Positions 23,000 to 40,669 of a DNA stretch of 48,193 nucleotides are shown here, piece by piece. This DNA comes from an uncultured Kiloniellales bacterium (lineage in GTDB: Bacteria > Pseudomonadota > Alphaproteobacteria > Kiloniellales > JAKSDN01). A program made the translations under genes and the position numbers. The stretch is from contig CAMYKD010000050.1 in NCBI GenBank assembly GCA_947258885.1, positions 12,879 to 61,071 of the forward strand, given 5' to 3'. The first letter of the stretch is position 1. Each line of letters opens with the position of its first letter. Below the pieces are notes generated by a model. That model had not been told where the DNA came from and did not search any database. It saw only the letters and a program-made list of their open reading frames with translations.

Positions 23000-23818
23000 C
23001 TAGCTACTGCCCGAGGCGAGGATCCGCCGCACCAGGGCGAGGTCCGCGGGCTTGTCGACGTCGATGGGCGCGGTCGGAAACGGCAACTCGAGCGCCTTGG
23101 CCCGGACCTTCATGACCCGCGAGGCCCGCGCGAAAGCCTCTTCGAGGGAGAGCCGGCCGAGCAGGAACAGCGCCAGCGACCCGAGGCCGAAGGTCGCCAC
23201 GAGGCGCCAGGGGCGCTTGCGGTGGCGCTCGGCCGCGGCCCAGAAGCGGACCGCCCCGAGGCCGGCCTCGCGCGTCACGGCGTAGAGATTGCAGCCGGAA
23301 TATCGTCCGTCGCGGAAGCGCAGGAAGGTCCGCTGGGCGGTCGGAACGGCCTCCCGGACCACGGTCTCCGAGGCCAGGGCCGCGGCCAGATCGGCGTCCG
23401 AAGCCAGGACCCCGGCGCAGAAATGCTCGACCATCTCCGGGGCGAGCAGGGGGTTGTCCGCCGTCGCGATCAGCAGGGGGTAGGGGCTGCCCAGGGCCGC
23501 GGCGGCGCCGAGCACGCTCGCGCTCGTCGTCGGTCCGCTCGCGAGCACCGTGATGCGGCCGGCCGCGACGGCCTCGGCGATCGGGGCCAGGGCCTCGAGC
23601 ACCTCGGGCGCCTCGATCGAGATGGCGATGGCGCCGATCGAGGGGCTGGCGGTCAGGGTCTCCACGACACGGACGAGCATCGGGGTCCCCAACACGTCGA
23701 CCAGACACTTGTGGCTGATCCCCTCGCTTCTCGCGACCGGGTCGGCCGCGCCGCGCGAGGCGGCCAGGATCAAGGCGGTGAAGCGCCGGCCGGCGCCGGA
23801 CTGGGTCGCTCCGCTCAA
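23000..23818 (-). CDS. MobA-like nucleotidyltransferase (candidate CTP-dependent head-group enzyme of sphingolipid synthesis)
   Basis: 272 residues. The N-terminal nucleotide-binding sequence is FTALILAASRG (about residues 13-23), then SHKCLVDVLGTPML with the conserved Lys37, and TADNPLL as the metal-binding Asp region. A C-terminal hydrophobic/amphipathic part (SLALFLLGRLSLEEAFARAS) suggests membrane contact. The TTG start at 23818 overlaps the stop of the GNAT gene (TTGA), consistent with coupling. In Caulobacter crescentus a cytidylyltransferase (CpgD) near the ceramide genes activates phosphoglycerate for ceramide head groups; this gene is a candidate counterpart, inferred from family and location. 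Other possible substrates are a sugar phosphate or molybdopterin-like compound. Last gene of a three-gene run with the hydroxylase and the GNAT protein. Confidence 0.75.
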   Translation of the reverse strand: MSGATQSGAGRRFTALILAASRGAADPVARSEGISHKCLVDVLGTPMLVRVVETLTASPSIGAIAISIEAPEVLEALAPIAEAVAAGRITVLASGPTTSASVLGAAAALGSPYPLLIATADNPLLAPEMVEHFCAGVLASDADLAAALASETVVREAVPTAQRTFLRFRDGRYSGCNLYAVTREAGLGAVRFWAAAERHRKRPWRLVATFGLGSLALFLLGRLSLEEAFARASRVMKVRAKALELPFPTAPIDVDKPADLALVRRILASGSS

Positions 23819-25014
23819 GCGAGGGCCTTTTCGTAGATCCGGTAGGTCTTGTAGGGCACCCCGCCGGCCGCCTCGATGACCTTGCGGGCCGGCAGGTTGT
23901 CCTCGAGCACCCAGGAGAGCTCGGCGCCCTTGTAGCCGGCCCGCCGGACGTTCTCGTGGACCTTCTCGATGACCGTATAGGCCAGCCCCGCGCCCATCGC
24001 GCCCCCCTGGTATTTCTTGCGCACCCCCATGAGCGGCATCCGCACCCTGGCGATCTTGCCGGCCTTCAGCCGGTAGAGCAGCTTGGCCCAGCCGAAGGGC
24101 AGGAGCGCGCCGTCCAGGTCGGCCATGGCTTCGTTGAGATCGGGCAGGGCGAGCGCGAAGGCGGCCGGATCGCCGTCGATCTCGACGATGCAGACGAAGT
24201 CCTCCCGGATCAGGGGTTTCATGTCCTTGGCGATCTTGGCGATCTCCACCTCGGAGAAGGGGATGAAGCCCCAGTTGTTCGACCAGGCGTCGTTGAAGAC
24301 CTCCAGCACCGCCTTCAGGTCCCGGCCGAACTTCGATTTCCGCAGCCGGCGAACGGTCACGTTCGGCCTCTTGGCCAGGTTGTCGACCAGGCGCCGCACC
24401 GCGCGCGGCACCGACCTGGCCGTGACCACGTCGAAGTCGTAGGCGATGAGGTCCCTGATCTTGGCGTAGCCCTGGTCCTCCAGGCGCCCGGCATAGTAAG
24501 GCGGCGCGTGGCCCATCATGAGCGCCGGCGGCCTGTCGTAGCCCTCGATCAGCAGGCCGGATTCGTCGTTGATCGACAGGCTGAAGGGGCCGCGCATGCC
24601 CCGCATGCCCCGCTCCTTGAGCCAGTCCTCGGCGGTTCGCAGCAGCACGGCGAAGGTCTCGTCGTCGTCCTCGGCCTCCAGGAAGCCGAAATGTCCACAG
24701 GCGTCCTGGTGCTGGCTGAGCGCGGCTTGATCGATCTGGGCGCTGATCCGGCCGACCGGCTCGCCGCCCCGTAGCGCCAGCCAGAACCGCACCTCGGCAT
24801 GGTCGAAGAACGGGTTGGCGGCGGGGTCCAGGTGCTGGCGCCGCTCGAACACGAGCGGCGGCACCCACCGGGGATCGTCCCGGTAGATCCGCCAGGGCAC
24901 GCGGATGAAGCGGTTCAGATCGGCCTTGTTCCGGACCTGGACGATCTCGATCGCCGAAGTGCCGGATGCCCGCTGCTCGCCCGCCGGGGCCGGTCGGGAC
25001 TCAGGTAGCGCCAT
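23815..25014 (-). CDS. bcerS: GNAT-fold N-acyltransferase, bacterial ceramide synthase type
   Basis: 399 residues. The N-terminal half has VRNKADLNRFIRVPWRIYRDDPRWVPPL, HAEVRFWLALRGGEPVGRISA and GPFSLSINDESGLLIEGYDRPP. The C-terminal half is a second GNAT-like domain (AWSNNWGFIPFSEVEIAKIAKD, GVRKKYQGGAMGAGLAYTVI, ELSWVLEDNLPARKVIEAAGG). In databases such proteins are often mislabelled as dATP pyrophosphohydrolase. The Caulobacter ceramide synthase, which N-acylates 3-ketosphinganine, belongs to this type. The nearby spt, acp, cerR and ligase genes support the same function here. Start ATG 25014 overlaps the hydroxylase stop by 14 bases, so these genes are coupled. Confidence 0.83.
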   Translation of the reverse strand: MALPESRPAPAGEQRASGTSAIEIVQVRNKADLNRFIRVPWRIYRDDPRWVPPLVFERRQHLDPAANPFFDHAEVRFWLALRGGEPVGRISAQIDQAALSQHQDACGHFGFLEAEDDDETFAVLLRTAEDWLKERGMRGMRGPFSLSINDESGLLIEGYDRPPALMMGHAPPYYAGRLEDQGYAKIRDLIAYDFDVVTARSVPRAVRRLVDNLAKRPNVTVRRLRKSKFGRDLKAVLEVFNDAWSNNWGFIPFSEVEIAKIAKDMKPLIREDFVCIVEIDGDPAAFALALPDLNEAMADLDGALLPFGWAKLLYRLKAGKIARVRMPLMGVRKKYQGGAMGAGLAYTVIEKVHENVRRAGYKGAELSWVLEDNLPARKVIEAAGGVPYKTYRIYEKALA

Positions 25015-26148: not shown

Positions 26149-27330
26149 ATGATCAATACCATCGATCGTTACATCCTGCGGCAGGTCATCGTGACGTCGG
26201 CGGCGATGATCGGTGTTGCGCTGGCAGTCCTGCTGTTGGAGCGGCTGCTCCGAATCCTCGAACGCGCGGTCAACGCGGACGCGGTTCTCGGCTACGTGTC
26301 CCGGATGCTGGTGACCCTGATCCCGCATTACCTAGGAGTCTCCCTACCGCTCGCCTTCTTCCTCGGCATCATCTTGACCTTCAACCGCTTGAACCGCGAC
26401 AACGAGCTCGCGGTCATGACCGCTGCCGGGGCGGGCTTGCGGCGGCTGATGGCACCGGTCATGGGCCTGGCCCTGCTGCTTGCGGTGTTCGCCGCGATCA
26501 CCGTCAGCTATCTCCAACCGTTGGCGCGCTACAACTACCGGGCCTTGAACGTGGCGGCGGCTCACGCATCGCTCAGCGCGGCGGTAAAGGAGGGCACCTT
26601 TGTACATGCCGACGGCATGACCTTCATCGCGGAGGAGACGTCGCGCAACGGCCAGAACCTTCGCAAGGTCTTCGTCTACGAAGAGAACGAGGACGGAAAG
26701 TCCATCGTCACGACCGCCGACGATGCCACTCTGCGCAGGGCCGCCGACGATGCGGGCTCGATATTGGTCCTCAGAGACGGACGGCGATCCAAGATCGGCC
26801 GGGACCAAGGGGACGGCACCCTGATATTCGAGCAGTTCCAATGGCCCATCGACGCATCCGGCAAGGCGGTTCGGGCCCGGGGCAAGGACGAGCGAGAGCT
26901 TACCCTACCGGAACTCTGGGCGGTGATGTCGGCGCCGCTGGACCGGATCAGTGCGTCGGAGGCCCGTGCGGAGCTGCATGCCCGCCTGGTCAGATTGTCG
27001 TCGATTCTCGTCCTGCCATTGCTTGCCGTACCGCTGGCCCTCGGTGGCGGGCGCGGCGGCCAGTCCTACGGGATCGCCGTCGGACTGCTGACCCTGCTGG
27101 TTTACGAACAGGTCGTAAAGTTCGGCGAGTCCATGGCGGATCTCGACCGCCTTACTCCATGGCTCGGCATGTGGCTTCCCCTCGCCGTGCTGGCAGCGGG
27201 CAGCGGCCTCCTCTCCTACCGGGCGGCCTCCAAGGTTTCGAAAGGCAGGCTGCGCAGGCTGCCGGCACCTGTCGAAATCCTCCTCTCGATCAGGAGACGT
27301 CTGAGACCATGGCGGCGGTGGCGAATTTGA
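26149..27330 (+). CDS. lptF: LptF-like permease, probably for sphingolipid export
   Basis: 393 residues. The YjgP/YjgQ (LptF/LptG) architecture is clear. An N-terminal helix starts INTIDRYILRQVI, followed by VALAVLLLERLLRIL. Two more membrane segments follow (LGVSLPLAFFLGIILTFNRL and LMAPVMGLALLLAVFAAITV). The periplasmic beta-jellyroll domain spans about residues 140-265 (GTFVHADGMTFIAEETSRNG and onward). The C-terminal segments are LSSILVLPLLAVPLALG and WLPLAVLAAGSGLLSY. LptF partners LptG and LptB to extract lipids from the inner membrane. Being next to lptG and the ceramide-kinase-type gene, this pair is more likely dedicated to sphingolipid than to LPS; the housekeeping lptFG genes would lie elsewhere. 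First gene of the plus-strand run; overlaps lptG by 22 bases. Confidence 0.87.
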   Translation: MINTIDRYILRQVIVTSAAMIGVALAVLLLERLLRILERAVNADAVLGYVSRMLVTLIPHYLGVSLPLAFFLGIILTFNRLNRDNELAVMTAAGAGLRRLMAPVMGLALLLAVFAAITVSYLQPLARYNYRALNVAAAHASLSAAVKEGTFVHADGMTFIAEETSRNGQNLRKVFVYEENEDGKSIVTTADDATLRRAADDAGSILVLRDGRRSKIGRDQGDGTLIFEQFQWPIDASGKAVRARGKDERELTLPELWAVMSAPLDRISASEARAELHARLVRLSSILVLPLLAVPLALGGGRGGQSYGIAVGLLTLLVYEQVVKFGESMADLDRLTPWLGMWLPLAVLAAGSGLLSYRAASKVSKGRLRRLPAPVEILLSIRRRLRPWRRWRI

Positions 27331-28400
27331 TCTCCATCGTCGGCGGATATGTTGCGCGCCTGTTCCTGGCCCGCTTGCTGGTGATCCTGGTGGCGCTGGC
27401 CGCACTGATGGTCATGGCCGATCTGCTGGCCAACAGCGACGAGATCATCGAGACCACTCAGGACGTGGCGTGGTCCTTGAGCAGATACACCGTTCTCAGG
27501 CTGCCGGCTATTCTGGCACAGGTCATACCCGTATCGGTCCTACTGGCCTCTCTGACCCTGTTGGCCGGACTTGCGCGACACAGCGAGCTGACTGCCATCT
27601 TTGGCGCCGGGTTGTCCCACTTCAGGGTGATCCTGATGCTGATGCCGGCGACTCTGTCGATCGCCGTGGCGCAGTTCATAATCGAGGACCAGGCGGTGCC
27701 GCCGGCCAGCGCACGCCTGCGCGCCTGGGGCGTCGGTGACTACAAGGTTCTTGTCGCAGGCGCACCACACCATACGACCTGGATCCGTCAAGGCGCAAAT
27801 CTTGTTCGGATTGGCCGCGTCGAGGCGGCTCGAGACGAGATCTTCGACGTGACGATCTTTCACCGGGATAGCGAAGGACAGTTGATCGAGAAAGTCGAGG
27901 CCCGGAGTGCGGCCTACGACGATGGAAACTGGACCCTGAGGGAGATTGTCCGGACCGATCCGGATACCGGAGCGTCGACCAACGTCGCGCGCCTGACCTG
28001 GCCGGGGGCCATCGAAAGCGCCGTGCTGCATTCGCTCAGCGTCCATCCTCGGGAACTGCCCTGGACCGAGGTCAAACAACTCGCCGAAAAATCGGGCTAC
28101 GGCAACCAACCGACCTATCTCTACGAGATCTGGATTCAGAAAAGGATCGCCCGCCCGATTGGCACAGTTCTTATGGTCTTCCTGGCGGTGGCGTCGGTGC
28201 AGCGCATGCATCCGCGCCGGCCCGCCGGACTCATGCTGGCGGCCGGCATCGGGATAGGGTTCGTCTATTGGATATTCGACGAGTTGGTGGTGACGATCGG
28301 CGAGGCGGGGCTCTTGCCCTCGGTGCTGGCAGCCTGGACCGCGCCCTTCGTTCTGGGCGCCATCGCCAACGCGTTGATCCTGCGTCAGGATGGGCGCTAA
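27309..28400 (+). CDS. lptG: LptG-like permease
   Basis: 363 residues from ATG 27309 (AGGAGA about 10 bases upstream), overlapping lptF. N-terminal helix YVARLFLARLLVILVALAALMVMADLLANSDEI, then RLPAILAQVIPVSVLLASLTLLAGLARHSELTAIFGAGLS with the coupling-helix region that contacts LptB. The periplasmic jellyroll domain spans about residues 125-255 (QGANLVRIGRVEA and onward). The C-terminal membrane part is RPIGTVLMVFLAVASVQ, then RPAGLMLAAGIGIGFVYWIFDELV, the last close to the standard LptG wording. No LptB, LptC or LptA gene is near, so it would share an ATPase from elsewhere. Presumed to form a heterodimer with the upstream protein. Confidence 0.87.
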   Translation: MAAVANLISIVGGYVARLFLARLLVILVALAALMVMADLLANSDEIIETTQDVAWSLSRYTVLRLPAILAQVIPVSVLLASLTLLAGLARHSELTAIFGAGLSHFRVILMLMPATLSIAVAQFIIEDQAVPPASARLRAWGVGDYKVLVAGAPHHTTWIRQGANLVRIGRVEAARDEIFDVTIFHRDSEGQLIEKVEARSAAYDDGNWTLREIVRTDPDTGASTNVARLTWPGAIESAVLHSLSVHPRELPWTEVKQLAEKSGYGNQPTYLYEIWIQKRIARPIGTVLMVFLAVASVQRMHPRRPAGLMLAAGIGIGFVYWIFDELVVTIGEAGLLPSVLAAWTAPFVLGAIANALILRQDGR

Positions 28401-28428: not shown

Positions 28429-29385
28429 ATGAAGATCGGTCTGATCAGCAATACGCTGAGCCAGCGCAACAAACGCGGCCTGCCGAAGCCCTCCGGAGCG
28501 TCATCCTGCGGTGTCGAGGTGCTCCACAGGCCTCTCGACGGTATTGACGGCATGGCCGAGGTTCTCGACGAGTTCGCGGCGGTCGAAGTCGGGTTGATCG
28601 CCGTCAACGGGGGCGACGGTACCATCTCGGCGGCCCTGACTGGGCTCATGGAGCGGCCCCGCTTCGAGGAGGTGCCACCGCTCGCGCTTCTGTCCGGCGG
28701 TATGCTCAACATGAGCGCGGCAGACGCGGGCCTCAAAGGGGGCCCCGAAAAAGCCTTGGCACGCTTGGCCGCGCGTGCCGCCGAGCCCGATCTGGCCGGC
28801 GCCTGCATAGAGCGCGAGGTGATCCGGCTGAGCTACAGCAGGAACAAGCTTCCGGTCTACGGATTGTTTTTCGGCACGGCCGCCATCTATCGGGGTATCG
28901 TGCTGTGCAGCGAACGGGTGCACACGGCCAAGCTCAAATCCACCACGGCTGCGGCCGCGACACTTGCCTATATGCTGGGCCGCTATTTCTTCGGGCGCGG
29001 CGCGGCCGATCCCTTGCTTGCCGGAGACGACATGACCGTGCGGTTCGATGGCGCGCCGGGCAAGGAGGTGACCCAGTTCCTGGCACTGGTCACCACATTG
29101 GATCGCTTGATGTTGAAATCGCGGCCCTATTGGGGCCGGGGAGCCGGACGGCTGCGCTACATGGGGATCACCTATCCGCCCAGGCGGTTGGGCCGTTCGG
29201 CCTATCGCGTCCTCTACGGCCCCCCGGATCGCCGTCTGCCGGAGGAGTACGTGAGCCTCAATGCCGACAAGGTGGTCTTCGAGATGACCTGCCCCTTTAC
29301 GCTGGACGGGGAACTCTTCGATCCGGAACCCGGCACGCCGGTGGAACTGAGCGGGGCCGGCCGCTTGCGCTTCGTGCAGTGTTGA
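28429..29385 (+). CDS. cpgB: DAGK-family lipid kinase, ceramide kinase type
   Basis: 318 residues. The catalytic nucleotide motif is NGGDGT (residues 60-65), and the second Gly-rich region is LLSGGMLNMSAADAGLKGG (about 88-106). It lacks the typical C-terminal GGG motif wording of YegS but keeps the beta-rich domain after residue 120. In Caulobacter a divergent DAGK-family kinase (CpgB) phosphorylates ceramide; the location here, between lptG and spt, argues for the same function. Substrate assignment is inferred; diacylglycerol or another lipid alcohol cannot be excluded. The gene starts 28 bases after lptG (ATG 28429 with GGAG upstream) and precedes the TAM41-like gene by 26 bases, so the four genes look like one transcript. 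Confidence 0.78.
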   Translation: MKIGLISNTLSQRNKRGLPKPSGASSCGVEVLHRPLDGIDGMAEVLDEFAAVEVGLIAVNGGDGTISAALTGLMERPRFEEVPPLALLSGGMLNMSAADAGLKGGPEKALARLAARAAEPDLAGACIEREVIRLSYSRNKLPVYGLFFGTAAIYRGIVLCSERVHTAKLKSTTAAAATLAYMLGRYFFGRGAADPLLAGDDMTVRFDGAPGKEVTQFLALVTTLDRLMLKSRPYWGRGAGRLRYMGITYPPRRLGRSAYRVLYGPPDRRLPEEYVSLNADKVVFEMTCPFTLDGELFDPEPGTPVELSGAGRLRFVQC

Positions 29386-29411
29386 GCGAGCCTCCGACAG
29401 GCGGCCGGTCG

Positions 29412-30344
29412 ATGAGCGCGATAATCTTGCGCGAACTTCGCCAGCCGGTCGCGGCATCGGTCCGGGTGGCCGCACAGGAGGTCCGTCGGCGTCACGGCGC
29501 TTCGCTTGTCGCGTGCCTGTTCTACGGGTCCTGTCTCAGGGACGGCCGGGACGAGGACCGTGTCATCGACTTCTACGCCATAGCCGACGACTACCGGCGT
29601 TTCTACGATAGCTGGGTCCCGGCGGTCCTGAACGCCATTCTGCCGCCCAACGTCTACTACCTCGAAACTCCTTTCGAGGATCGGGTGGTCCGGGCGAAGT
29701 ACGCGGTCGTGTCGCTCGGGCATTTGATCCGCCGCACCTCGCCGGCGGCCTTCCAGCCTTCGCTCTGGGGCCGGCTCGCACAGCCCTGCGCGCTGGTCTA
29801 TGCGCGCGATGCCGTTGCGGAGGAGACGGTGGCCGGCGCGCTTGCGGCGGCGGTGCAGACCATGGCGGGCGAGACGCTGGCCCTGATGCCGGCCGAATTC
29901 ACGCCGGACCAGCTGTGGACCAGGGCCTTTCGGGAAAGCTACGGCACGGAATTGAGGGCAGAGCGATCCAACCGGCCCCAAGACCTGTATCGCGCCTACT
30001 CGGAGCGCTATGACGGCCTGACCGCCGCGGCGCTGTCCGGTTTGGAGTGCCGAGCGGCAGACGACGCGGCGGGCGCGCCGGCGATCCGCCATCGGGCGGG
30101 TGCGGGCAAGCGCCGAGCGGCCCGGCTGCGTTGGATGATCAGGCGTCTGCTTGGGAAAACCACGCACGTGCTGAGGCTCCTGAAGGCCGCCTATACCTTC
30201 ACGGACGGGCTGGACTACATCCTCTGGAAGATCGAGAAGCACTCGGGCGTGCACACGACACCCACGCCATGGCAGCGGCGTCATCCGCTCATGGCCGCGC
30301 CATCGCTGGCCTGGCGGCTCTATCGGCGCGGCGCCTTCCGCTGA
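29412..30344 (+). CDS. TAM41-like nucleotidyltransferase (candidate CDP-lipid synthase)
   Basis: 310 residues. The sequence follows the mitochondrial phosphatidate cytidylyltransferase TAM41 segment by segment. LFYGSCLRDG corresponds to the GYGS nucleotide loop. VIDFYAIADDYRRFYDSW corresponds to the metal-binding IDxxxxV region. Next come LPPNVYYLE, then KYAVVSLGHLIRR, then WGRLAQP (matching the AGRLxKP block) and FRESYGTELRAE near residue 175. The C-terminal third (about 215-310) is basic, with a possible membrane-associated helix. TAM41 makes CDP-diacylglycerol from phosphatidate and CTP. Next to a ceramide kinase-type gene, a CDP-ceramide or modified head-group product is an attractive inference. 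Assigned from motif order only. Confidence 0.72.
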   Translation: MSAIILRELRQPVAASVRVAAQEVRRRHGASLVACLFYGSCLRDGRDEDRVIDFYAIADDYRRFYDSWVPAVLNAILPPNVYYLETPFEDRVVRAKYAVVSLGHLIRRTSPAAFQPSLWGRLAQPCALVYARDAVAEETVAGALAAAVQTMAGETLALMPAEFTPDQLWTRAFRESYGTELRAERSNRPQDLYRAYSERYDGLTAAALSGLECRAADDAAGAPAIRHRAGAGKRRAARLRWMIRRLLGKTTHVLRLLKAAYTFTDGLDYILWKIEKHSGVHTTPTPWQRRHPLMAAPSLAWRLYRRGAFR

Positions 30345-30370: not shown

Positions 30371-31606
30371 CTACTCGGCCGACTGGCGCAGCAGATACCG
30401 CCCGGCGTTCTGCGCCTCGTAGGCGTGCATTTCCTCGGCCACCTGCCCGAAGGCCTCCGCGATCCAGTCGATCTGCTCCGGCGTATGGGCGGCGGACGCG
30501 CTGCAGCGTAGCAGCGAGGTGCTGTTCGGCGTTCCGGGCGGTATTGCAAGGTTCACGTAGACGCCGGCCTGGAGCAGCTTGTTCCAGTACATGACCGCCT
30601 GCTCCTGCGTCGCGATCTTCACCGCGATGATCGGGCTGGGCGGCGCGGCGAGGGTCAATCCGAACGCGCTCAACCGGTCGTAGAGCGCGTGCGCGTTGCG
30701 CCACAGCGTCTCCTGCAGTCCCGGATCGCTCCGCAGGCGCCCGAGGGCCGTCGTGACCGAGGCCACGTTGGACGGCGACAGGGAGGCCGTGAACATGTAC
30801 GGCCGGCTTGCGAAACGCAGGAAGGGGAACTTGGGATGGTCCGAGGCGCAGAAGCCGCCGATCGAGCCCAGGCTCTTGCTGAAGGTGCCCACGACGAAAT
30901 CGACGTCGTCCAGCACCCCGGCGTGCTCGGCAACGCCACGACCTTTCTCGCCGAAGACGCCGACCGAATGGGCCTCGTCCACATAGAGATAGGCCTTGTG
31001 CCGGCGTTTGACCTCGGCGAACTCGGCCAGCGGCGCAATGTCGCCGAACATGCTGTACAAGCCCTCGACGATGATCAGCTTGTTCGTGTCCTTGCTGTCG
31101 AGCCGCTTCAGCCTCTTATCCAGGTCCTCCGGGCAGTTGTGCCGGAAGCGGATGACCGTGGCCCCGGTCATGCGGCAGCCGTCGTAGATGCAGGCGTGAC
31201 AGTCGGCATCCAACAGGATGTAATCGCCGGGCCCGGCCAAGGCGGAGATGACGCCCAGATTAGCCTGATAGCCCGTCGGGAAGACCATGGACGAGGCAAA
31301 TCCGAAGAAGGACGCGATATCGTCCTCCAGCCTGCGGTGCTCCGAATAGGTGCCATTGGCGATCCGTGATCCGGTCGTGCCCGTGCCCAGCCGATCGAGC
31401 GCATCGTGGGCTGCGTCCACGCAATCCTGGTCGAAGGTCAGGCCGAGGTAGTTGTTGGTGCCGGCCAGCACGACATTTCGTCCCTGGATTATGGCTTCCG
31501 TGGCGGAGCACATCTTATCCATGCACACACCGAAGGGGTCTCTGCCGGCCGAAACGATTTGCTCGTGCAGTCCTGGCAGACCGGCTATTTTGTCAAAAAG
31601 ATCCAT
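30371..31606 (-). CDS. spt: Serine palmitoyltransferase (alpha-oxoamine synthase family)
   Basis: 411 residues. PLP lysine Lys244 in GTFSKSLGSIGG, ring-stacking His137 in DADCHACIYDG, Asp210 and His213 in VDEAHSVG. The sequence TGATVIRFRHN (about 147-157) is a feature of bacterial SPTs within the alpha-oxoamine synthases, as is the N-terminal NNYLGLT and GTGTTGSRIANGTY. It condenses serine with a palmitoyl group to 3-ketosphinganine. It lies four bases after an ACP gene, so the acyl donor is probably acyl-ACP. 2-amino-3-ketobutyrate ligase and BioF are unlikely in this gene context. Confidence 0.92.
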   Translation of the reverse strand: MDLFDKIAGLPGLHEQIVSAGRDPFGVCMDKMCSATEAIIQGRNVVLAGTNNYLGLTFDQDCVDAAHDALDRLGTGTTGSRIANGTYSEHRRLEDDIASFFGFASSMVFPTGYQANLGVISALAGPGDYILLDADCHACIYDGCRMTGATVIRFRHNCPEDLDKRLKRLDSKDTNKLIIVEGLYSMFGDIAPLAEFAEVKRRHKAYLYVDEAHSVGVFGEKGRGVAEHAGVLDDVDFVVGTFSKSLGSIGGFCASDHPKFPFLRFASRPYMFTASLSPSNVASVTTALGRLRSDPGLQETLWRNAHALYDRLSAFGLTLAAPPSPIIAVKIATQEQAVMYWNKLLQAGVYVNLAIPPGTPNSTSLLRCSASAAHTPEQIDWIAEAFGQVAEEMHAYEAQNAGRYLLRQSAE

Positions 31607-31610
31607 GTGC

Positions 31611-31877
31611 CTACTGGGCCCCCGCCTGTTTGTGTATTGCTCGGACCAGATCCCCCACTGTCCGAATTTCCGACAAGAGATTCATCGGAAATGAAATGCC
31701 GTACTCATCCTCGACTTCCATGATCAAGTCGAGCACTGCAACCGAATCGATCTCCAAGTCTCCCGTGATGTCGGTTTCGGCCGTCAGATCTAGGTTTCTG
31801 ACGTTGAACTGCTGCAACTTTCGGCAGACTTTACGCAAAACCAAGTCGTCTGCGACATCCATCGAGCCAGATACCAT
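31611..31877 (-). CDS. Dedicated acyl carrier protein
   Basis: 88 residues (or 83 if translation starts at the ATG at 31862). The phosphopantetheine site is LEIDSVAVLDLI (Ser45 from the first Met). The usual DSL is DSV here; helix II continues DLIMEVEDEYGISFP. It is acidic, apart from a basic N-terminal extension (RKVCRKLQQFNVRNLDL) that is unlike housekeeping AcpP. In Caulobacter a separate ACP with its own ligase supplies acyl chains for ceramide; the neighbours spt and ligase suggest the same here. Four bases separate it from spt. The 282-base gap upstream (to cerR) may hold a promoter; an AT-richer patch at 31970-31990 is the best candidate. Confidence 0.9.
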   Translation of the reverse strand: MVSGSMDVADDLVLRKVCRKLQQFNVRNLDLTAETDITGDLEIDSVAVLDLIMEVEDEYGISFPMNLLSEIRTVGDLVRAIHKQAGAQ

Positions 31878-32159: not shown

Positions 32160-33101
32160 CTAGAGCCAGCCGTGCTCTTCGTACCAATTCAGGGTCAGTC
32201 GAAGTCCTTCGTCCAGGTCCACTTTCGGGCGCCACCGCGTAAGGCGCGTCAGCGGGTTGTCCCTGCACACCCAGTCGCGATGGTACAGTTCTCGCACCTT
32301 GCCCGGGGAAATTCTCGGAACATGTCCGGTGATCCGCGACAAAGAGTGGTTCGCAATTGCGGCCGCGTGCATGACGGACCGGGGCACCGGTACGCAGGTG
32401 ACCTTCCGTCCGATATGGCGACTGCCTGCCTCGGCGACCGCGCGCCACGAATAGCCCTCCTCGCAGGCGTCTCTGATTTCGAACAGGGACCCGCTTTCGA
32501 TCGAGGCCGAAAGCAACGTTCCGATGGCTTCGCAAAGATCCTCGACATAGATGAGTGAGATGCGGGCGCTTTCAAGGGCCGGCGCGGGGAGCAAACCATG
32601 ACGCAGCAGCCGGAACAGTTGAAACGTCTCCCGGTCGCCGGGACCGTAAACCGCCGGCGGTCGAAGCGCGGTCCAGTGGACAGCCTCGGCTTGTTGCGCC
32701 AGTTCCTCTTCCGCGCGCCTCTTGCTGGCGGCGTAGTCGGAGAGCTCGGGATGGCGCGCAGCCAGCGAGGACACAAAGATCAGGCGCGGCGGCCTTTGCT
32801 GGCGGGCGCAGGCCTGGACAAGTCGTGCCGTCCCGGTCGCGTTTACCCGGTCCAGGTCCTTGCGCGCGGCCGCCTTGATCAGGCCGGCGCAATGGACCAG
32901 GGCCTCGGCGCCCTCCACCAGGTCCGCCAGACTCGCATCGTTCTCGAGGGCGCCTTCGACGACGGTGACCTCGGTTGGCAAACGCGCTATCCCGGGATGG
33001 CGGCACAGGGCGCGCACCTCCAGCCCCGAGGCCAGCAGGGACTTGACCAAATGACGGCCGATGAAACCGGTCGCTCCGGTCAGCGCTACGCTCTTCGCCA
33101 T
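32160..33101 (-). CDS. cerR: NAD-dependent epimerase/dehydratase-family protein, ceramide reductase type
   Basis: 313 residues, an extended short-chain dehydrogenase. NAD(P)-binding motif TGATGFIGRHL (residues 8-18), Ser111/112 and the catalytic pair Tyr123 and Lys127 in YAASK. The ending, RWRPKVDLDEGLRLTLNWY, is family-typical. In Caulobacter the homologous epimerase-like protein reduces the 3-keto group during ceramide synthesis, and the gene order spt-acp-cerR-ligase is the same there. Function is inferred from this context; the sequence alone would be called a generic sugar epimerase. Starts 37 bases after the ligase gene stop, so the two are probably coupled. Confidence 0.83.
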   Translation of the reverse strand: MAKSVALTGATGFIGRHLVKSLLASGLEVRALCRHPGIARLPTEVTVVEGALENDASLADLVEGAEALVHCAGLIKAAARKDLDRVNATGTARLVQACARQQRPPRLIFVSSLAARHPELSDYAASKRRAEEELAQQAEAVHWTALRPPAVYGPGDRETFQLFRLLRHGLLPAPALESARISLIYVEDLCEAIGTLLSASIESGSLFEIRDACEEGYSWRAVAEAGSRHIGRKVTCVPVPRSVMHAAAIANHSLSRITGHVPRISPGKVRELYHRDWVCRDNPLTRLTRWRPKVDLDEGLRLTLNWYEEHGWL

Positions 33102-33138: not shown

Positions 33139-34869
33139 TCAGTTCGGCGTAGCCGGGAAATACCCCGATAGGTACCGGACCTTGGTAAAGGTCCGGCTTA
33201 TCTTTCCCGAAGATGTGAGCGGCAGGCTTCGCGTCGGTGCCAGAACGACCTTGGTATCGACCCCAACCGACTTGCGTACGATCGCGGTCACGTCCTGCAA
33301 GAGCTGCTCGCGCGCATCCTCTTCATTGGTTCGGCATTGGACAATCGTGACCACTTCCTCTCCCGTGTCCGGGAAGTCCACGGAGAAGGCCGCCACGTCG
33401 CCGTTTCGGATGCCCGGCAGCCGTTCGACCGCCCATTCTATGTCCTGCGGCCAGATGTTCCGGCCGTTGCAGATGATCAGGTCCTTGCTTCGCCCTGTGA
33501 TGACCAGGGAGCCGTTGATCGTGTACCCCAGGTCGCCGGTGTCGAGCCAGCCGTCTTCCGACAGCACGGCCGCGGTACTTACCGGGTCCTGGAAGAAGCC
33601 GACCATTACGCTCGGTCCCTTGACCAGGATGCGGCCCACCTCGCGGTCGGGCAGACGCTCGCCGTCCTGGTCCCGGATCTCCACCTCGTGCTCCGGCATG
33701 GCCTTACCGCACAGTACGAAGGACCTGGCTTTCTCGGCGGGCATATCGGCGGCCGCCAGCACCGCCCGGCCGGCCTGGGCGAGTTCCTGTTTATCGACCC
33801 TGTCGACCTCGAAACCGCCGTCCAAGGGGGCAAAGCTGACCGCCAGCGTGGATTCCGCCAATCCGTAGCTCGGTACGAATGCCGAACGCTTGAACCCCGC
33901 GCCGGCAAATGTCTCGGCAAACCGATTGAGTACACCGGCCCTGACCATGTCGCCGCCGATGCCCGCCACACGCCACGAGGACAGGTCCAACGACTCCGCG
34001 GCTCCGTTGCCGCCCTGGCGCCGGCACAGGTCGTATCCGAAGGACGGGCTGAATCCAACGGTGCCGCGGTTTTCCGAGATCAGGCGCAGCCACATCAGGG
34101 GGCGCCGGGCAAAATCGGCGGTGGCGATGTAGTCGACGGACAATTGGGATAGCGTGGGCGATATGCAGAATCCGATCAGCCCCATGTCGTGATAGAGGGG
34201 AAGCCAGGAGGCGCAGCGGTCGCCCGGGCGCACGTCCAGGCCATGCAGCGTAATCGCCCTGACGTTGCTGCTGGCCGAACGCTGCGAGACGATGACGCCC
34301 TTGGGATCGCTCGTGCTACCCGAAGAATACTGGATATAACAGAGATCGTCCCGACCGGCCGGGCGGAACTCCGGGCCCTCTGCCTGCGTGTAGAAGTCTT
34401 GCGGCGTGCCGACCATCGGGATCTCCAGGCCGTCGACCGCCTGCCGCAGCAGACCGATCATGTCCGAAGAGGCCATGGCGACCGAAGGATCGGCCGAGAC
34501 GATCATGCGCCGAAGCTGCTCGACATAGGCGTCCTTGCCGCCCAGGTTCATGGGAACGGGAAGCTGGACCGGAAGCAGACTGGCGTACTGACAGGCGAAG
34601 AAGAAACAGTGGAAGTCCGGCGTCGTTTCCGCGACCAGGGCAACTCTGGCGCCGCGCGGGAGCTTGAGATTGACCAGCTTCCTGGCCAGCGAAATGGCAT
34701 TCTCGCGAAGTTCGGCATAGGAGAGGATTTGCCGAAGCTCGCCTCGCCTCGTGTAGTAGTTGTAACCGGTTTCGCCCTTGGCGGCGTAATCGAGCCCCTC
34801 CACCAGAGTTTCAAACGTGCCTAGTTGGAAGGGTAGGGCGTTGTTCGATGTCGGGGTAGGGCGTTGCAT
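33139..34869 (-). CDS. Fatty acyl-AMP/ACP ligase of the ceramide pathway
   Basis: 576 residues, ANL superfamily. ATP-binding motif YSSGSTSDPKG (residues 181-191), then WLPLYHDMGLIGF, VPSYGLAESTLAVSFAPL, DGWLDTGDLGY and TGRSKDLIICNGRNIWPQDIE. The conserved late lysine is in TSSGKISRT near residue 557. The layout (HDMGLIG, NIWPQDIE) is that of FadD32/fatty acyl-AMP ligases, which load ACPs or PKSs rather than CoA. It would charge the adjacent ACP with a fatty acid for Spt or the ceramide synthase. First gene of the four-gene run ligase-cerR-acp-spt on the minus strand; its promoter is probably in the 167 bases upstream. Confidence 0.9.
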   Translation of the reverse strand: MQRPTPTSNNALPFQLGTFETLVEGLDYAAKGETGYNYYTRRGELRQILSYAELRENAISLARKLVNLKLPRGARVALVAETTPDFHCFFFACQYASLLPVQLPVPMNLGGKDAYVEQLRRMIVSADPSVAMASSDMIGLLRQAVDGLEIPMVGTPQDFYTQAEGPEFRPAGRDDLCYIQYSSGSTSDPKGVIVSQRSASSNVRAITLHGLDVRPGDRCASWLPLYHDMGLIGFCISPTLSQLSVDYIATADFARRPLMWLRLISENRGTVGFSPSFGYDLCRRQGGNGAAESLDLSSWRVAGIGGDMVRAGVLNRFAETFAGAGFKRSAFVPSYGLAESTLAVSFAPLDGGFEVDRVDKQELAQAGRAVLAAADMPAEKARSFVLCGKAMPEHEVEIRDQDGERLPDREVGRILVKGPSVMVGFFQDPVSTAAVLSEDGWLDTGDLGYTINGSLVITGRSKDLIICNGRNIWPQDIEWAVERLPGIRNGDVAAFSVDFPDTGEEVVTIVQCRTNEEDAREQLLQDVTAIVRKSVGVDTKVVLAPTRSLPLTSSGKISRTFTKVRYLSGYFPATPN

Positions 34870-35036: not shown

Positions 35037-36755
35037 TCAGAGCAGGTTGGCGCGGGACTCCGACTCTCGAACCAGGCTGTATTGGTCCGCGCCCAGCTCG
35101 AAGATCTGGTCGGCTACAGCGATCCAGGCCGGTCGGTGCGTGATGGAGAGAATCGTCAAGGAGCCCGAAAGGCCACGTATGTTCCCGCAGATGGCCGCTT
35201 CGGTCTCGGGGTCCAGCGCGCTGGTCACCTCGTCGAGGATCAGCAGCGCCGGCTTGTGGACCAGGGCCCGGGCGAGTGCGATGCGTTGGCGCTCCCCACC
35301 CGACAGCTTGATGCCCCGCTCTCCCACCTCGGACATGAGGCCCTCGGGCAGGGCCGAGACGAAGTCCCAGGCCCCGGCGGCCTCGAGCGCGGCCTGCACT
35401 TGCTCGGCCCCGAGCGATTCGTCGCCGAGAGTTATGTTGGTCAGGATCGTATCGTGGAACAGGATCAGTTCCTGTGGCACATAGCCGATCATGGCGCGCC
35501 AGGCCTGCAGATCGATCTGCTCGAGCGGTACGCCGTCGATCAAGATTTGGCCCTGGTCCGGCCGATAGAGGCCAAGCAAGAGGTCGGTCAGCGTCGTTTT
35601 GCCGACACCCGAAGCACCCATGATTACCGTCACCTGCTTGGCCGGGATGTCGATGGAAACGTCCTGCAGGACGGGCTTCGATCCGAAGGCAAAGGAAATG
35701 TCCCGCATCGAGCAGCCACGCGTGAGGGTCGGAGAAACGGTGCCGTGCAGGATCTCTCTTGCCTGTTCGGACTCGGCGATCAGGTTGTGAATCGACCAGT
35801 AGGCGCTCTCGACGATGGCGGCGTCCTGGTAGAGCTTTTGCATCTTATTGATCCGACTGACCGTCCGCTGCAGCACCAGACCCATGACGAGCAACTCGGA
35901 GATCGGCAGGGACCAGATCCTGACCACGAGGTAAAAGCCGAGTGCCAAGCAAACAGTGAGTAGCGGTTCCTGCAGGTTCTGCATCATCTGGCGGCTGAGC
36001 ACTTGGCGGCGCAGAGCATATCGCAGGTCGGTTGTTTTTCGCCGGAACAAATTGGCGAAGTGGGTCTGCCTGGACATCGCCTTGAGCGGCTTGATGCCAA
36101 CCAGGGCGTCGCTCAAATGGGTCACGAGTTCGTTGGTGCGCTTGGTTTGACGTCGTCCCGCCTTTCTCGCTTTGCGGACCATCGAACTCAGAACGAGGGC
36201 AATGAAACCACCTATGCCAATAGCGAAAAGGGCGAGTTTCCACGACAGCAGCAAGGCCACCGCCAAATAAGCGAGGCATTGAATTGCAATCGTCAGGAAC
36301 TGAACAGCAGTTACGTATGCCTGGGCCGAACGGGTCGCTTCAAAGCTGACCGCGTTCGCTATCCGTCCGACAGGTTGACGGGTAAAATAGCTCCACCTGA
36401 CTCGTAAGAGACCGTCGATCAACTTGGTCCGAAGTTGGGTCGCGACCTCCGCGGCTGCATATCCGACTTGACGCATTGCCAGAATGCCAAGTGCGGCGCG
36501 CAAGCTGATACCAGCCACCACGAGCAGGACGAGAGTCTCCAGGGTGCTGGACAGGCCAACGCGCTCGAGTGTCTCCACGACCAGTTTGCTGGCTGGCGAG
36601 GACTGCGCCGCGGCATCGTTGCCCGCGATCGAGACGAGGGGCAGCAAGGTGGTCACGCCGATGCCTTCCGCCAGGCCGGCAAGCAACAGGAGAAGGGGAA
36701 CCGTCCACCGGGTTGCACCCTTCAAAGCCAGGAATATGCGTATGATGCCGAGCAT
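35037..36755 (-). CDS. ABC exporter (permease fused to ATPase), lipid/glycan flippase-like
   Basis: 572 residues. An N-terminal transmembrane domain (about 1-310: VPLLLLLAGLAEGIGVTTLLPL, LETLVLLVVAGISLRAALGI, TIAIQCLAYLAVALLLSWKL) is followed by a nucleotide-binding domain. That domain has Walker A GASGVGKTTL (about 374-383), Q-loop YVPQELILF, signature LSGGERQRIALARAL, Walker B LLILDEVTSALD and switch THRPAWI. Half-size exporters of this kind work as homodimers and flip lipids, lipid-linked sugars or peptides. Between the ceramide-ligase gene and the CDP-alcohol module, a lipid or glycan substrate is plausible; nothing in the sequence fixes it. Separate from the ceramide operon by 167 bases. 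Confidence 0.88.
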   Translation of the reverse strand: MLGIIRIFLALKGATRWTVPLLLLLAGLAEGIGVTTLLPLVSIAGNDAAAQSSPASKLVVETLERVGLSSTLETLVLLVVAGISLRAALGILAMRQVGYAAAEVATQLRTKLIDGLLRVRWSYFTRQPVGRIANAVSFEATRSAQAYVTAVQFLTIAIQCLAYLAVALLLSWKLALFAIGIGGFIALVLSSMVRKARKAGRRQTKRTNELVTHLSDALVGIKPLKAMSRQTHFANLFRRKTTDLRYALRRQVLSRQMMQNLQEPLLTVCLALGFYLVVRIWSLPISELLVMGLVLQRTVSRINKMQKLYQDAAIVESAYWSIHNLIAESEQAREILHGTVSPTLTRGCSMRDISFAFGSKPVLQDVSIDIPAKQVTVIMGASGVGKTTLTDLLLGLYRPDQGQILIDGVPLEQIDLQAWRAMIGYVPQELILFHDTILTNITLGDESLGAEQVQAALEAAGAWDFVSALPEGLMSEVGERGIKLSGGERQRIALARALVHKPALLILDEVTSALDPETEAAICGNIRGLSGSLTILSITHRPAWIAVADQIFELGADQYSLVRESESRANLL

Positions 36756-37705: not shown

Positions 37706-38902
37706 TTGGTGAAGACAGCTGTCCCCGGGGCGGACGAGGCCGGGTCGCCCAATCTGTATCTCGTCGGAAGTTGCGACACCGAGATCTGGGGATTGACCCC
37801 CGTCGAGCGCCACACCCGCGCCTTCCGGCGGGTCGGCGTGTCCTCGGTTCTGTCGGCCGGGCAGCCCCTGCCGCAAGAGGGCGCCGTGATCATGGTCCGG
37901 AGCGAGTTTGTCTTTGCCGCGGAGCTGGTCCAAGCCCTGGCCGAAACGCCCGGTGTCGTCCTTGCGGTCGAGGGCGAGCGTCCCGGAGAAAGGATGGCCG
38001 TCGCGGCCCACATCGACGCCGCGCAGGCCGGCGAGGTCCAGAGGCTCCTGGCGCGCGGCGCGCTCGGCGGGAACGATCATGTGCCGTCGGACCTGCGTGT
38101 TTTGTCGCCCGGGGAGCTCGGTCCCTCGTACAACAGGTCGCTGCGCAAGCGCGCCGCTCCCTTCGTCCTGCCGTTGAGCGAAGGTTCGCGCGCCGAGGTC
38201 GAAAAGAAGACCTTCGCGGCGGTCTACAAGGGCGCGACCGACTTCGTCACCAAGTGGTGCTGGCCCGTCCCGGCCCGCTGGGTGACCCGCTGGGCGGCTG
38301 CATGGCGCATTTCGCCCAACACCATCACCACGGTCAGCCTGGTCTTCGTGCTCCTGGCCATGTACCTCTTCGCCGAGGGCCAGTTCCTGCTAGGCGTGGC
38401 CGCGGCCTGGTTCATGACCTTTCTCGATACGGTCGACGGCAAGCTCGCCAGGGTGACCATGACGTCCTCCGCATGGGGTAACGTCTACGACCACGGTATC
38501 GACCTGATCCATCCACCCTTCTGGTGGTGGGCTTGGTGGCATGGCCTGCAGCAGGCCGGGACTGCCGCCGCGCCGGCGACCCTCGATCTCGCGCTGTGGA
38601 TCGTCGTCGTGGGCTATGTCGTCGGCCGGCTTCTGGAGGGGGTGTTCCACTGGACCTTCAAGATCCAGACCCACATCTGGCGTCCGGTCGATTATTTCTT
38701 CCGCACGATCACCGCGCGGCGCAATCCCAACCTGGCGATCCTCATGGTGGGCGCACTCTTCGGCCGGCCCGATCTGGGATTCATCGCCGTCGCGGTCTGG
38801 ACCGTCCTTTCCATCGTCTTTCATTTCGAGCGCATTGCCCAGGCCGCCTTGGTCCGCGCCCGGGGCGGCCGGATCACGTCCTGGCTGAGCGAGCCGGGGT
38901 GA
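37706..38902 (+). CDS. CDP-alcohol phosphatidyltransferase with degenerate N-terminal nucleotidyltransferase-like domain
   Basis: 398 residues. The CDP-alcohol transferase motif DxxDGxxAR followed by GxxxDxxxD is complete (Asp241, Asp244, Gly245, Arg249, Gly258, Asp262, Asp266). Membrane helices flank it: ITTVSLVFVLLAMYLFA, LALWIVVVGYVVGRLLEGVF, LGFIAVAVWTVLSIVF. Residues 15-135 resemble a MobA-like nucleotidyltransferase (LVGSCDTEIWGL, RRVGVSSVLSAG) but lack an intact nucleotide loop. The enzyme attaches an alcohol phosphate from a CDP donor to a lipid or alcohol in the inner membrane. Starts at TTG 37706 or GTG 37709, with GGAGGG 7-10 bases upstream. Acts with the following HAD and cytidylyltransferase genes. 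Confidence 0.83.
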   Translation: MVKTAVPGADEAGSPNLYLVGSCDTEIWGLTPVERHTRAFRRVGVSSVLSAGQPLPQEGAVIMVRSEFVFAAELVQALAETPGVVLAVEGERPGERMAVAAHIDAAQAGEVQRLLARGALGGNDHVPSDLRVLSPGELGPSYNRSLRKRAAPFVLPLSEGSRAEVEKKTFAAVYKGATDFVTKWCWPVPARWVTRWAAAWRISPNTITTVSLVFVLLAMYLFAEGQFLLGVAAAWFMTFLDTVDGKLARVTMTSSAWGNVYDHGIDLIHPPFWWWAWWHGLQQAGTAAAPATLDLALWIVVVGYVVGRLLEGVFHWTFKIQTHIWRPVDYFFRTITARRNPNLAILMVGALFGRPDLGFIAVAVWTVLSIVFHFERIAQAALVRARGGRITSWLSEPG

Positions 38903-38961
38903 GCGGCAAGGTAACGCGTGTCGGTTCGACGGCGGCGGTTCGGCCGGTATTGGATACCGTC

Positions 38962-39663
38962 ATGACCGGACAGTCGAATTCCCTTGATGTCGCGGCGCGC
39001 CCGGTGGCGGCCGTCTTCGATCTGGACAAGACCATCACCAGGCGGGCGACCTACATTCCCTTTCTGCTGTCGATTGCCCGCCACAAGGTCTTCAAGCTGC
39101 TCTACGTGGCGCCGATCCTCGGGGCGGGACTGGCCTACAAGATCGGCCTGATTTCAAGGGGCCGGGTGAAGGAGTTCATGCTGAGAGCCGTTCTGGGCAG
39201 AGCCTCGCGCGCCGAGGTCGCGGCCTACGCCGAGGCCTTCGTCGCCGAGTGCATCGGCCGCGGACTGCGTCCCGGCGCCCTGCGCGCCATTGCCGAGCAC
39301 CGCGCCCGGGGCCACAACTTGATCCTTGCAACGGCGAGTTTCGACTTCTATGTAGAGCGCCTCGGCCAGCAACTCGGCTTCGACTCGGTGATCGCCACCC
39401 GATCGGTCTGGGACGAGAGCGGACGGCTACTCGGCAGGATCGATGGCGAAAACTGTTATGGTGCGGAAAAGCTGCGCCGGTTGGAAGAAGCGTTGCCCGA
39501 CCTGCGGGGGAGCTATCGGGTGGTCGCCTATTCCGACAGCCACGTCGACCTGCCCTTGCTGCGTTGGGCGGACAGCGGCGTGGCGGTCAACCCGTCGCGC
39601 AGGCTGCGCCGGCGCGCCCGGTCCGGAGGTCTGGATGTCGTCGATTGGAACGAGGTCTCGTGA
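38962..39663 (+). CDS. HAD-IB family phosphatase
   Basis: 233 residues from ATG 38962; a GTG at 38899 (overlapping the previous stop as GTGA) would add 21 residues and is an equally real possibility. Motif I VFDLDKTITRR has the nucleophile Asp20 and Asp22; motif II LATASFDFYVE; motif III/IV SDSHVDLPLL. The serine-phosphatase-like HAD-IB group includes phosphatases for phospholipid intermediates such as phosphatidylglycerophosphate. Located directly behind the CDP-alcohol transferase, it probably removes the terminal phosphate of that product. A hydrophobic stretch (LLYVAPILGAGLAYKIGL) suggests membrane association. Confidence 0.85.
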   Translation: MTGQSNSLDVAARPVAAVFDLDKTITRRATYIPFLLSIARHKVFKLLYVAPILGAGLAYKIGLISRGRVKEFMLRAVLGRASRAEVAAYAEAFVAECIGRGLRPGALRAIAEHRARGHNLILATASFDFYVERLGQQLGFDSVIATRSVWDESGRLLGRIDGENCYGAEKLRRLEEALPDLRGSYRVVAYSDSHVDLPLLRWADSGVAVNPSRRLRRRARSGGLDVVDWNEVS

Positions 39664-39780
39664 CGCGGCGCGCGCCGGGCGCCGAACCGGCCCGGCCGGC
39701 AGCCGGCAGATGTTAATGGAGCCTTAACCCGCCATCCGCCATCTACCCGTTTGACCCCTAGCGACTCGTGGAAAGCCCAA

Positions 39781-40542
39781 ATGAAAGCACTCATCCTTAG
39801 CGCCGGGCAGGGCTCGCGCCTGCTGCCTCTGACCGAGGACCGTCCCAAATGCCTGCTGCCGATCAACTCCTCCAGGATGATCGAGTTGCAGATCCGCGCG
39901 CTGATCGACTGCGGGATCGAGGAGATCGCCGTCGTGGTCGGCTTTCGCGCGGCGGCCGTGGCGCATTTCCTCGAGGAGCTCGATCACGCGGGCGCGGCGA
40001 TCCGCACCCTGTTCAATCCCTTCTTCAACGTGGCGGACAACCTGGCCAGCTGCTGGATGGCCAGGGGCGAGATGGACCGGGACTTCGTTCTGCTGAACGG
40101 CGACACCCTGTTCGAGCCGGCGGTGCTCGACCGCCTGCTCTCCGCCCCGGCGGCGCCGATCACCATGGCTATCGACCGCAAGGCGGCCTACGATTCGGAC
40201 GACATGAAGGTGCGGCTCAACGGCAGCCGCCTGGTCGAGGTCGGCAAGACCCTGTCCAGCGAGATGGTCGACGGCGAGTCGATCGGCATGATGCGCTTCC
40301 TGGGCGAGGGGCCGAGGCGCTTTGCCGGTGTGCTCGACGAGATCATGCACACGCCCAACGGCATCAGCTGGTGGTATCTGAAGGCGATCGGCGTGCTGGC
40401 CGACCAGGGCCTGGTCGAAACCCGCTCGATCGAGGGTCTGACCTGGGGCGAGGTCGACTTCCGCGAGGACCTCGAGCGCGCCGAGACGCTGTTTCCGGAT
40501 CAACCCTCCGTGCTCGGCGCGGCGGCGGGCGGCACCGGTTGA
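39781..40542 (+). CDS. Sugar-/choline-phosphate nucleotidyltransferase (LicC-like)
   Basis: 253 residues. The nucleotidyltransferase loop MKALILSAGQGSRLLPLT (1-18) is followed by DRPKCLLPI with Lys23 and LNGDTLFE (about residue 105) as the metal site. Later landmarks are SWWYLKAIGVLADQGLVE and GEVDFREDLERA, the last being the second-metal motif of LicC/phosphocholine cytidylyltransferase relatives. It would make a CDP- or NDP-activated alcohol for the CDP-alcohol transferase encoded two genes upstream. 117 bases of non-coding sequence lie before it, and another 127 bases after. Sugar specificity (glucose-1-phosphate versus choline phosphate or inositol phosphate) cannot be told. Confidence 0.85.
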   Translation: MKALILSAGQGSRLLPLTEDRPKCLLPINSSRMIELQIRALIDCGIEEIAVVVGFRAAAVAHFLEELDHAGAAIRTLFNPFFNVADNLASCWMARGEMDRDFVLLNGDTLFEPAVLDRLLSAPAAPITMAIDRKAAYDSDDMKVRLNGSRLVEVGKTLSSEMVDGESIGMMRFLGEGPRRFAGVLDEIMHTPNGISWWYLKAIGVLADQGLVETRSIEGLTWGEVDFREDLERAETLFPDQPSVLGAAAGGTG

Positions 40543-40669
40543 TCGCGGGCAGCCGGATCTTGCCGATCCGGCCGGGCGTTGAAAACTCTGGGCTCCTGGC
40601 CCAAAGCTGCTTCCGCAGTTGGCAACGGGCGGCGCCGCGGCGCTGTCCGAATACGGCGTCGAAAGCGAT

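Follow-up and report, generated by a model that had tools for sequence, protein, structure and literature searches.

The CpgB and CpgC genes of the pathway for ceramide phosphoglycerate (CPG) and ceramide diphosphoglycerate (CPG2) lie side by side in a 48,193-nucleotide stretch of DNA from an uncultured Kiloniellales bacterium (assembly GCA_947258885.1, contig CAMYKD010000050.1, positions 12,879 to 61,071 of the forward strand). The whole stretch is referred to as the window, and positions are counted from its first letter. The pair was assigned by gene order and domains. CpgB (28429..29385, + strand) is a ceramide-kinase-like protein of the CC_1160/CCNA_01218 type, and CpgC (29412..30344, + strand) is a nucleotidyltransferase of the CC_1161/CCNA_01219 type, identified as Tam41-like by its fold, profile and conserved residues. 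CpgC of this pair probably acts on ceramide-1-phosphate and cytidine triphosphate (CTP), a putative activity that would yield cytidine diphosphate (CDP)-ceramide. The gene family, the requirement for it in CPG formation and the hypothesis of a nucleoside diphosphate (NDP)-activated ceramide were already known, and the CpgC of the window is a new member of this family.

The kinase has 318 amino acids and a GGDGT motif, and its diacylglycerol kinase catalytic domain (DAGK_cat, E 4.9e-10) scored 39.5 bits against a cut-off of 23.6. A gap of 26 bases separates its open reading frame (ORF) from the CpgC ATG at 29412; a preliminary description of the stretch had given the same coordinates and spacing, and both were right. 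The longer ORF that is listed as starting at 28905 is the CpgC frame extended upstream. With regard to the start at 29412, 29 of 35 genome matches (counting its own genome) reach back at least as far as residue 7 of the 310-amino-acid protein.

CpgC has the fold of Tam41

The structure of CpgC was predicted from 30 aligned rows (mean pLDDT 95.0, pTM 0.90). The model contains the Tam41 fold, in which a nucleotidyltransferase domain is combined with a second domain of the winged-helix type (residues 1-228, encoded by 29412..30095, + strand). In a Foldseek search with this model, the top five PDB matches were all Tam41, with E values from 5.6e-9 to 2.0e-7 and a TM-score of about 0.5. When compared by VIA-align, the model matched Firmicutes Tam41 (7ecd) with a Z of 19.3 over 228 residues at a root-mean-square deviation of 3.3 Å, and Schizosaccharomyces pombe Tam41 with Z values of 17.1 and 16.4; the matches covered model residues 11-263 (7ecd) and 1-244 (6ig4). 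The second-best fold family, ANT(4')-IIb, had a Z of 8.1 over 124 residues within positions 13-193. The comparison with Tam41 crystal structures, which had been put forward as a check, thus ranked Tam41 first.

Conservation was scored in an alignment of 93 CpgC rows, uncorrected for kinship: the window, 80 named loci kept among at least 581 relatives, and 12 of 29 further relatives. The Tam41 blocks that the preliminary description had noticed in the protein are present, and they are conserved in this alignment. Of the YGS block, Y38 is kept in 93/93 rows and G39 and S40 in 92/93 each. D53, K96, R121, Q124, Y177, R182 and E184 are each kept in 93/93, P125 and V81 in 91/93, Y83 in 85/93 and Y97 in 84/93. 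The 93-row profile found S. pombe Tam41 (SpTam41) at E 1.4e-5, a significant link for the family as a whole. In the profile alignment, K96, R121, P125, Y177 and R182 stand opposite identical residues of SpTam41, and Q124 stands opposite K. The YGS/Asp block pairs with SpTam41 only in a separate, negative-scoring stretch; its likeness was seen by eye in the sequence and is covered by the fold match. Thirty of the 93 members match PF09139 at E ≤0.1, the best of them at 2.2e-9. Of the three acids typical of the nucleotidyltransferase fold, Tam41 is described as retaining only one (PMC11646218), and a lack of metal-binding Asp residues, which the preliminary description had named as an argument against its reading, has to be judged with care. 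D53 is the sole Asp among the invariant residues of CpgC, and E184 is also invariant, both as read from the alignment.

Like Tam41/TAMM41 (PDB 6ig2, 6ig4; 7ecd), CpgC has a nucleotidyltransferase domain with a second domain, the YGS, Asp, K, R..P, Y and R positions, and a basic C-terminal end. Unlike Tam41, it sits in a sphingolipid cluster and travels with serine palmitoyltransferase (Spt) and ceramide kinase. The CdsA-type CDP-diacylglycerol (CDP-DAG) synthases (PF01148), of which the same kind of transfer of cytidine monophosphate (CMP) to a lipid phosphate is expected, form an unrelated integral membrane family; CpgC has no PF01148 match and is not of the CdsA type.

The C-terminal part of CpgC (residues 229-310, encoded by 30096..30341, + strand) has a net charge of +15, as compared with 0 for residues 1-228, and contains a long helix at 231-262 in the model. 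The hydrophobic moment over 18 residues is highest, at 0.58, for residues 238-255 inside this helix, followed by 0.56 at 5-22. K258, T262, F263, Y269, K273 and H277 of this part are each kept in 93/93 rows. No clear membrane span was seen in CpgC, the top 19-residue mean hydrophobicity being 0.50 on the Eisenberg scale. A positively charged amphipathic helix has been described for Tam41 (PMC7018664), which the basic part of CpgC resembles. Judging from its sequence, this part is likely to dock the protein to the membrane.

CpgC co-occurs with ceramide kinase and serine palmitoyltransferase

CpgC, CpgB, Spt and CpgA were each searched for in the same draw of 289 genomes of the class, the genome identifiers being consistent in the rows shown. 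CpgC was present in 34 of these genomes, which span 22 families. All 34 also had CpgB, as compared with 3 of the 255 others, where the matches were all weak (26.5-31.5 bits). Likewise, Spt (E 1e-80) was found in 34/34 genomes with CpgC and in 6/255 others; the Spt matches in G158 and G233 run across one stop codon. Fisher tests were applied to the co-occurrence, and since the genomes are related, their p-values overstate independence. Gene neighbourhoods were counted over the 80 named loci, many of which stop at contig ends, so that the per-gene counts are lower bounds. In 72 of the 80, CpgB immediately precedes CpgC, which bears out the pairing with a ceramide-kinase-type enzyme that had been claimed for the window. 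Two CdsA-type genes lie elsewhere in the window's genome, and CpgC would therefore not be needed for CDP-DAG. Taken together, the co-occurrence and the CdsA-type genes tie CpgC to ceramide kinase and sphingolipids rather than to glycerophospholipids.

Three loci (L060, L064 and L110) offer stretches of about 20 kb with CpgC and no detectable CpgB; there the kinase may be encoded elsewhere or another kinase may serve.

The window resembles the CPG region of Caulobacter

In order and domain content, the cluster in the window is like CC_1168-CC_1152 of Caulobacter crescentus, a region for which five ceramide genes, six CPG/CPG2 genes and a second LptC, LptF and LptG have been described (PMC11324152). 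Common to both is the order of ceramide kinase, CpgC, and then spt with other ceramide genes. The InterPro CDP-DAG synthase domain reported for CC_1161 (PMC11324152) is of the same domain type as the CpgC of the window. The two regions differ in that CpgA of the window is 7 kb away from CpgC, and in that searches of the window with three relatives found no metallophosphoesterase of the CC_1158 type (lowest E 0.47). A metallophosphoesterase family occurs in 44 of the 80 named loci (e.g., L055:7562-8527) and perhaps corresponds to CC_1158. No Caulobacter record is among the 80 loci kept. The closest CpgC among the named relatives listed is that of L031, a Rhodospirillales metagenome-assembled genome (MAG), with 92% identity.

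Published work on Caulobacter gives these genes their functional setting. CpgB (CCNA_01218) is reported to be a ceramide kinase, with ceramide shown as substrate (PMC10331486). According to the account in PMC11324152, both CPG and CPG2 are lost upon deletion of CC_1161, deletion of CC_1152 or CC_1153 removes CPG2 and leaves CPG, and a double mutant regained CPG with CC_1160 in the absence of CC_1159. CDP-glycerate is reported to be made by CpgD, and the cpgD mutant to keep CPG (PMC12275187). The same source describes Caulobacter living without lipopolysaccharide as partly dependent on the CPG pathway.

Proposed reaction and alternatives

In the mechanism that we favour, CpgC would be a peripheral membrane protein that docks by its basic C-terminal part and binds CTP at a site formed by YGS, D53, K96, R121 and R182. 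With ceramide-1-phosphate as the acceptor of CMP, the products would be CDP-ceramide and pyrophosphate. A CDP-alcohol phosphotransferase would then exchange CMP for glycerate, or for phosphoglycerate that is dephosphorylated later, to form CPG. CpgA is unlikely to be this transferase. If it is of the CDP-alcohol family, the transferase would be PssA or PgsA in three small genomes. Following the literature, with the genes assigned by position, the second phosphoglycerate would come from CDP-glycerate via CpgD and CpgA, and the lipid would be exported by Lpt2 and ABC proteins. The preliminary description had suggested a CDP-ceramide synthase as something new. As a mechanism it stands as the best reading of the fold, the profile and the co-occurrence. 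Its newness does not stand: an NDP-activated ceramide formed by CC_1161, together with a so-far unknown condensing enzyme, had been proposed in PLoS Pathogens in 2024 (PMC11324152). Fold, profile and co-occurrence give that idea firmer backing than the domain name does by itself.

Several observations weigh against the formation of CDP-ceramide by CpgC. Against PF09139, the CpgC of the window alone scored 13 bits (E 0.065), under the Pfam cut-off of 24, and it is only 12-15% identical to the Tam41 proteins of known structure. A genome search with PF09139 missed CpgC in its own genome; of 349 genomes from the phylum it matched one, and it matched no control genome. The single match, in G375, is itself a CpgA-CpgB-CpgC locus, and the phylum search thus supplied no true bacterial Tam41 sequences. 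Tam41 was also not found when PDB sequences were searched with the single CpgC (phmmer) or with a 30-row profile. By its sequence, the CpgC of the window is a distant relative of Tam41 and not a member of PF09139, and the common fold leaves its lipid substrate unfixed. Eight of the 80 named loci showed no CpgB next to CpgC in the usual arrangement: L081 ends at a contig edge, L091 has CpgB on the other strand, and no CpgB was found in the stretch covered at L042, L055, L060, L064, L100 and L110. These eight loci speak against a strictly fixed CpgB-CpgC pair. Reports of CpgC activity are absent from the literature examined. In addition, a motif search of the 80 named loci gave only CpgA-like proteins as CDP-alcohol transferases, and clustering of the neighbouring ORFs (families in at least 5 of the 80 loci) gave no new transferase.

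The published schemes draw CpgC as taking ceramide-1-phosphate to CPG, by a mechanism that they leave unidentified (PMC12275187, PMC13228409). CpgC itself might accordingly join glycerate or phosphoglycerate to ceramide-1-phosphate, with no CDP-ceramide released. The neighbourhoods, which yield no dedicated second enzyme, and the three genomes in which PgsA and PssA are the only members found of the CDP-alcohol family would suit such a one-enzyme reaction, and a single enzyme could use CTP and hold the intermediate bound. However, CpgC folds like nucleotidyltransferases that use CTP, and the authors of PMC11324152 call direct attachment energetically not very favourable. We consider this course of the reaction rather unlikely.

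The known functions of the fold relatives point elsewhere, since these make CDP-DAG, and CpgC could be a synthase like Tam41 that provides a local supply of CDP-DAG. Its strict co-occurrence with CpgB and Spt, the separate presence of two CdsA-type genes and the reported loss of CPG in the Caulobacter CC_1161 mutant (PMC11324152) all argue otherwise, and make this role improbable. It is harder still to believe that CpgC activates a small phosphate, such as phosphoglycerate, instead of a lipid. A nucleotidyltransferase fold within a pathway that uses CDP-glycerate would agree with it, but in Caulobacter that role belongs to CpgD, whose mutant keeps CPG (PMC12275187), and both the Tam41 fold and the basic C-terminal part of CpgC, which suits membranes, speak for a lipid substrate.

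Which enzyme would use CDP-ceramide

The CpgA-like CDP-alcohol phosphotransferase at 37706..38902 (+ strand, CC_1159 type; CDP-OH_P_transf, E 2.3e-9; motif DTVDGKLAR...G...D...D) had been named in the preliminary description as a possible consumer of CDP-ceramide. We do not favour this candidate. CpgA (threshold E 1e-10) was found in 20 of the 34 genomes with CpgC, leaving 14 without it, and in 0 of the 255 others; CPG is reported to form without CpgA in Caulobacter, where the published mutants keep it (PMC12275187, PMC11324152).

The fold of the protein at 37706 matched AF2299 with a Z of 24.5, and IPCT-DIPPS, tied or just below, with a Z of 23.0. As in CpgA, a cytidylyltransferase-like domain is fused to a CDP-alcohol phosphotransferase in both. 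The sequence GQGSRLLPLTEDRPK, which we take to be the CTP signature of cytidylyltransferase domains, was not present in the first 90 residues of CpgA-like proteins (0/38 rows). It is present in the CpgD-like phosphoglycerate cytidylyltransferase at 39772..40542 (+ strand, start approximate; NTP_transferase, E 1.4e-12), whose PDB relatives include 1jyk and 4jd0. CpgA hence differs from IPCT-DIPPS and AF2299 in that its N-terminal domain is without the CTP signature and CpgD is a separate protein. The N-terminal domain of the CpgA-like proteins is perhaps a dead remnant of a fusion of the IPCT-DIPPS type. The fold of CpgA, the signature missing from its N-terminal domain and the signature present in CpgD fit the published proposal that CDP-glycerate made by CpgD is used by CpgA.

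Six of the 14 CpgC genomes without CpgA were searched with PF01066. Three of them (G026, G158 and G256; 2.0-2.5 Mb, estimated 100% complete) have two PF01066 proteins each, PgsA and PssA. All three have a PgsA that scores over the cut-off of TIGR00560. PssA scores over that of TIGR00473 in two, and reaches 80 of the 107 bits in G256. The remaining three have 3 (G244), 5 (G233) and 4 (G131) such proteins, and the window's genome has 7. CpgB-CpgC adjoin Spt in G026 and G158, as in the window; in G256, CpgB and CpgC are adjacent and Spt is about 21 kb away. Since PgsA and PssA are the only candidates found in these three genomes, the consumer there would be one of the two, if it is of the CDP-alcohol family. 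Serine and glycerate differ solely in having an amine or a hydroxyl, which makes PssA an attractive consumer. We tentatively suggest, as a possibility of which we are doubtful, that CDP-ceramide serves as a second liponucleotide, consumed by PssA with glycerate in place of serine or by PgsA with phosphoglycerate in place of glycerol-3-phosphate. Alternatively, the consumer may be a divergent transferase under the threshold or an enzyme of another kind.

Some genomes have more than one CpgA-like protein. More than one CpgA match was found in 6 of the 20 CpgA genomes, the window's genome having one, and the motif identified a second CpgA-like transferase in 7 of the 80 named loci. In five of these (L041:2474-3682, L057:3189-4448, L060:3055-4368, L062:3132-4358 and L067:3160-4389), a second, diverged protein with the motif DSVDGK[LV]ARLTF lies near LptG2. 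The other two, L047 and L051, are Nitrospirales MAGs in which two CpgA-like transferases flank CpgB-CpgC (L047:7674-8903 and 11113-12354; L051:7668-8897 and 11160-12386). Here, one could serve for the first phosphoglycerate and one for the second.

Other genes of the cluster

Downstream of CpgC, five genes on the minus strand follow. Spt is encoded at 30371..31606 (NF047599, 624.5 bits, cut-off 500) and an acyl carrier protein, in the place of AcpR, at 31611..31877 (PP-binding, 2.3e-11). An NAD-dependent epimerase/dehydrogenase at 32160..33101 (Epimerase, 3.6e-24) takes the place of CerR by its position, and a fatty acyl-AMP ligase at 33139..34869 (NF006624, 782.8 bits, cut-off 600) that of AasR. 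The ABC transporter at 35037..36755 (ABC_tran, 2.9e-32) occupies the position of CC_1166, a potential flippase.

The upstream side of the pair holds an LptF2-like gene at 26149..27330 (+ strand; LptF_LptG, 6.4e-72) and an LptG2-like gene at 27321..28400 (+ strand, start approximate; LptF_LptG, 1.1e-64), together with a fatty acid hydroxylase gene. A GNAT-type protein at 23815..25014 (- strand; Acetyltransf_1, 1.1e-5) is in the place of the ceramide synthase CerS (CC_1154) and has relatives in at least 46 of the 80 named loci. The MobA/CofC-like nucleotidyltransferase of the CC_1153 type at 23000..23776 (- strand; NTP_transf_3, 8.1e-11) is 40% identical to its relative in L057 across 253 amino acids. 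Among the clusters of neighbouring ORFs, a metallophosphoesterase, named from the Pfam result of one member, was seen in 44 loci, and a CofC-like transferase, for which one other member was run, in 25; the second largest cluster, with 31 loci, is an apparent antisense frame of the largest.

Between CpgA and CpgD, at 38821-39663, the window encodes a HAD-IB phosphatase (TIGR01490), with a tblastn match in 1 of the 80 named loci (L031). It is a possible candidate for the removal of phosphate from phospho-CPG. A protein of 488 amino acids at 40619-42085 has no Pfam match and adjoins a CTP_transf_3 protein (42106-42834); a relative with 38% identity lies downstream of CpgC at L084:12240-13622.

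Implications

In the open literature, to which our search was confined, no paper was found on CDP-ceramide under that or similar names, and no title on CpgC was found that links Tam41 with CDP-ceramide and bacterial sphingolipids. The proposed role of CpgC addresses the step of the pathway in which ceramide-1-phosphate is converted to ceramide phosphoglycerate. If CpgC makes CDP-ceramide, this would be a sphingolipid liponucleotide and a second lipid substrate for the Tam41 family. In three genomes, two ordinary enzymes are left as candidates for the missing consumer, provided that it belongs to the CDP-alcohol transferase family. Should PssA or PgsA indeed use CDP-ceramide, sphingolipids and glycerophospholipids would have their head-group enzymes in common, and CpgB-CpgC would be the sole dedicated entry step.

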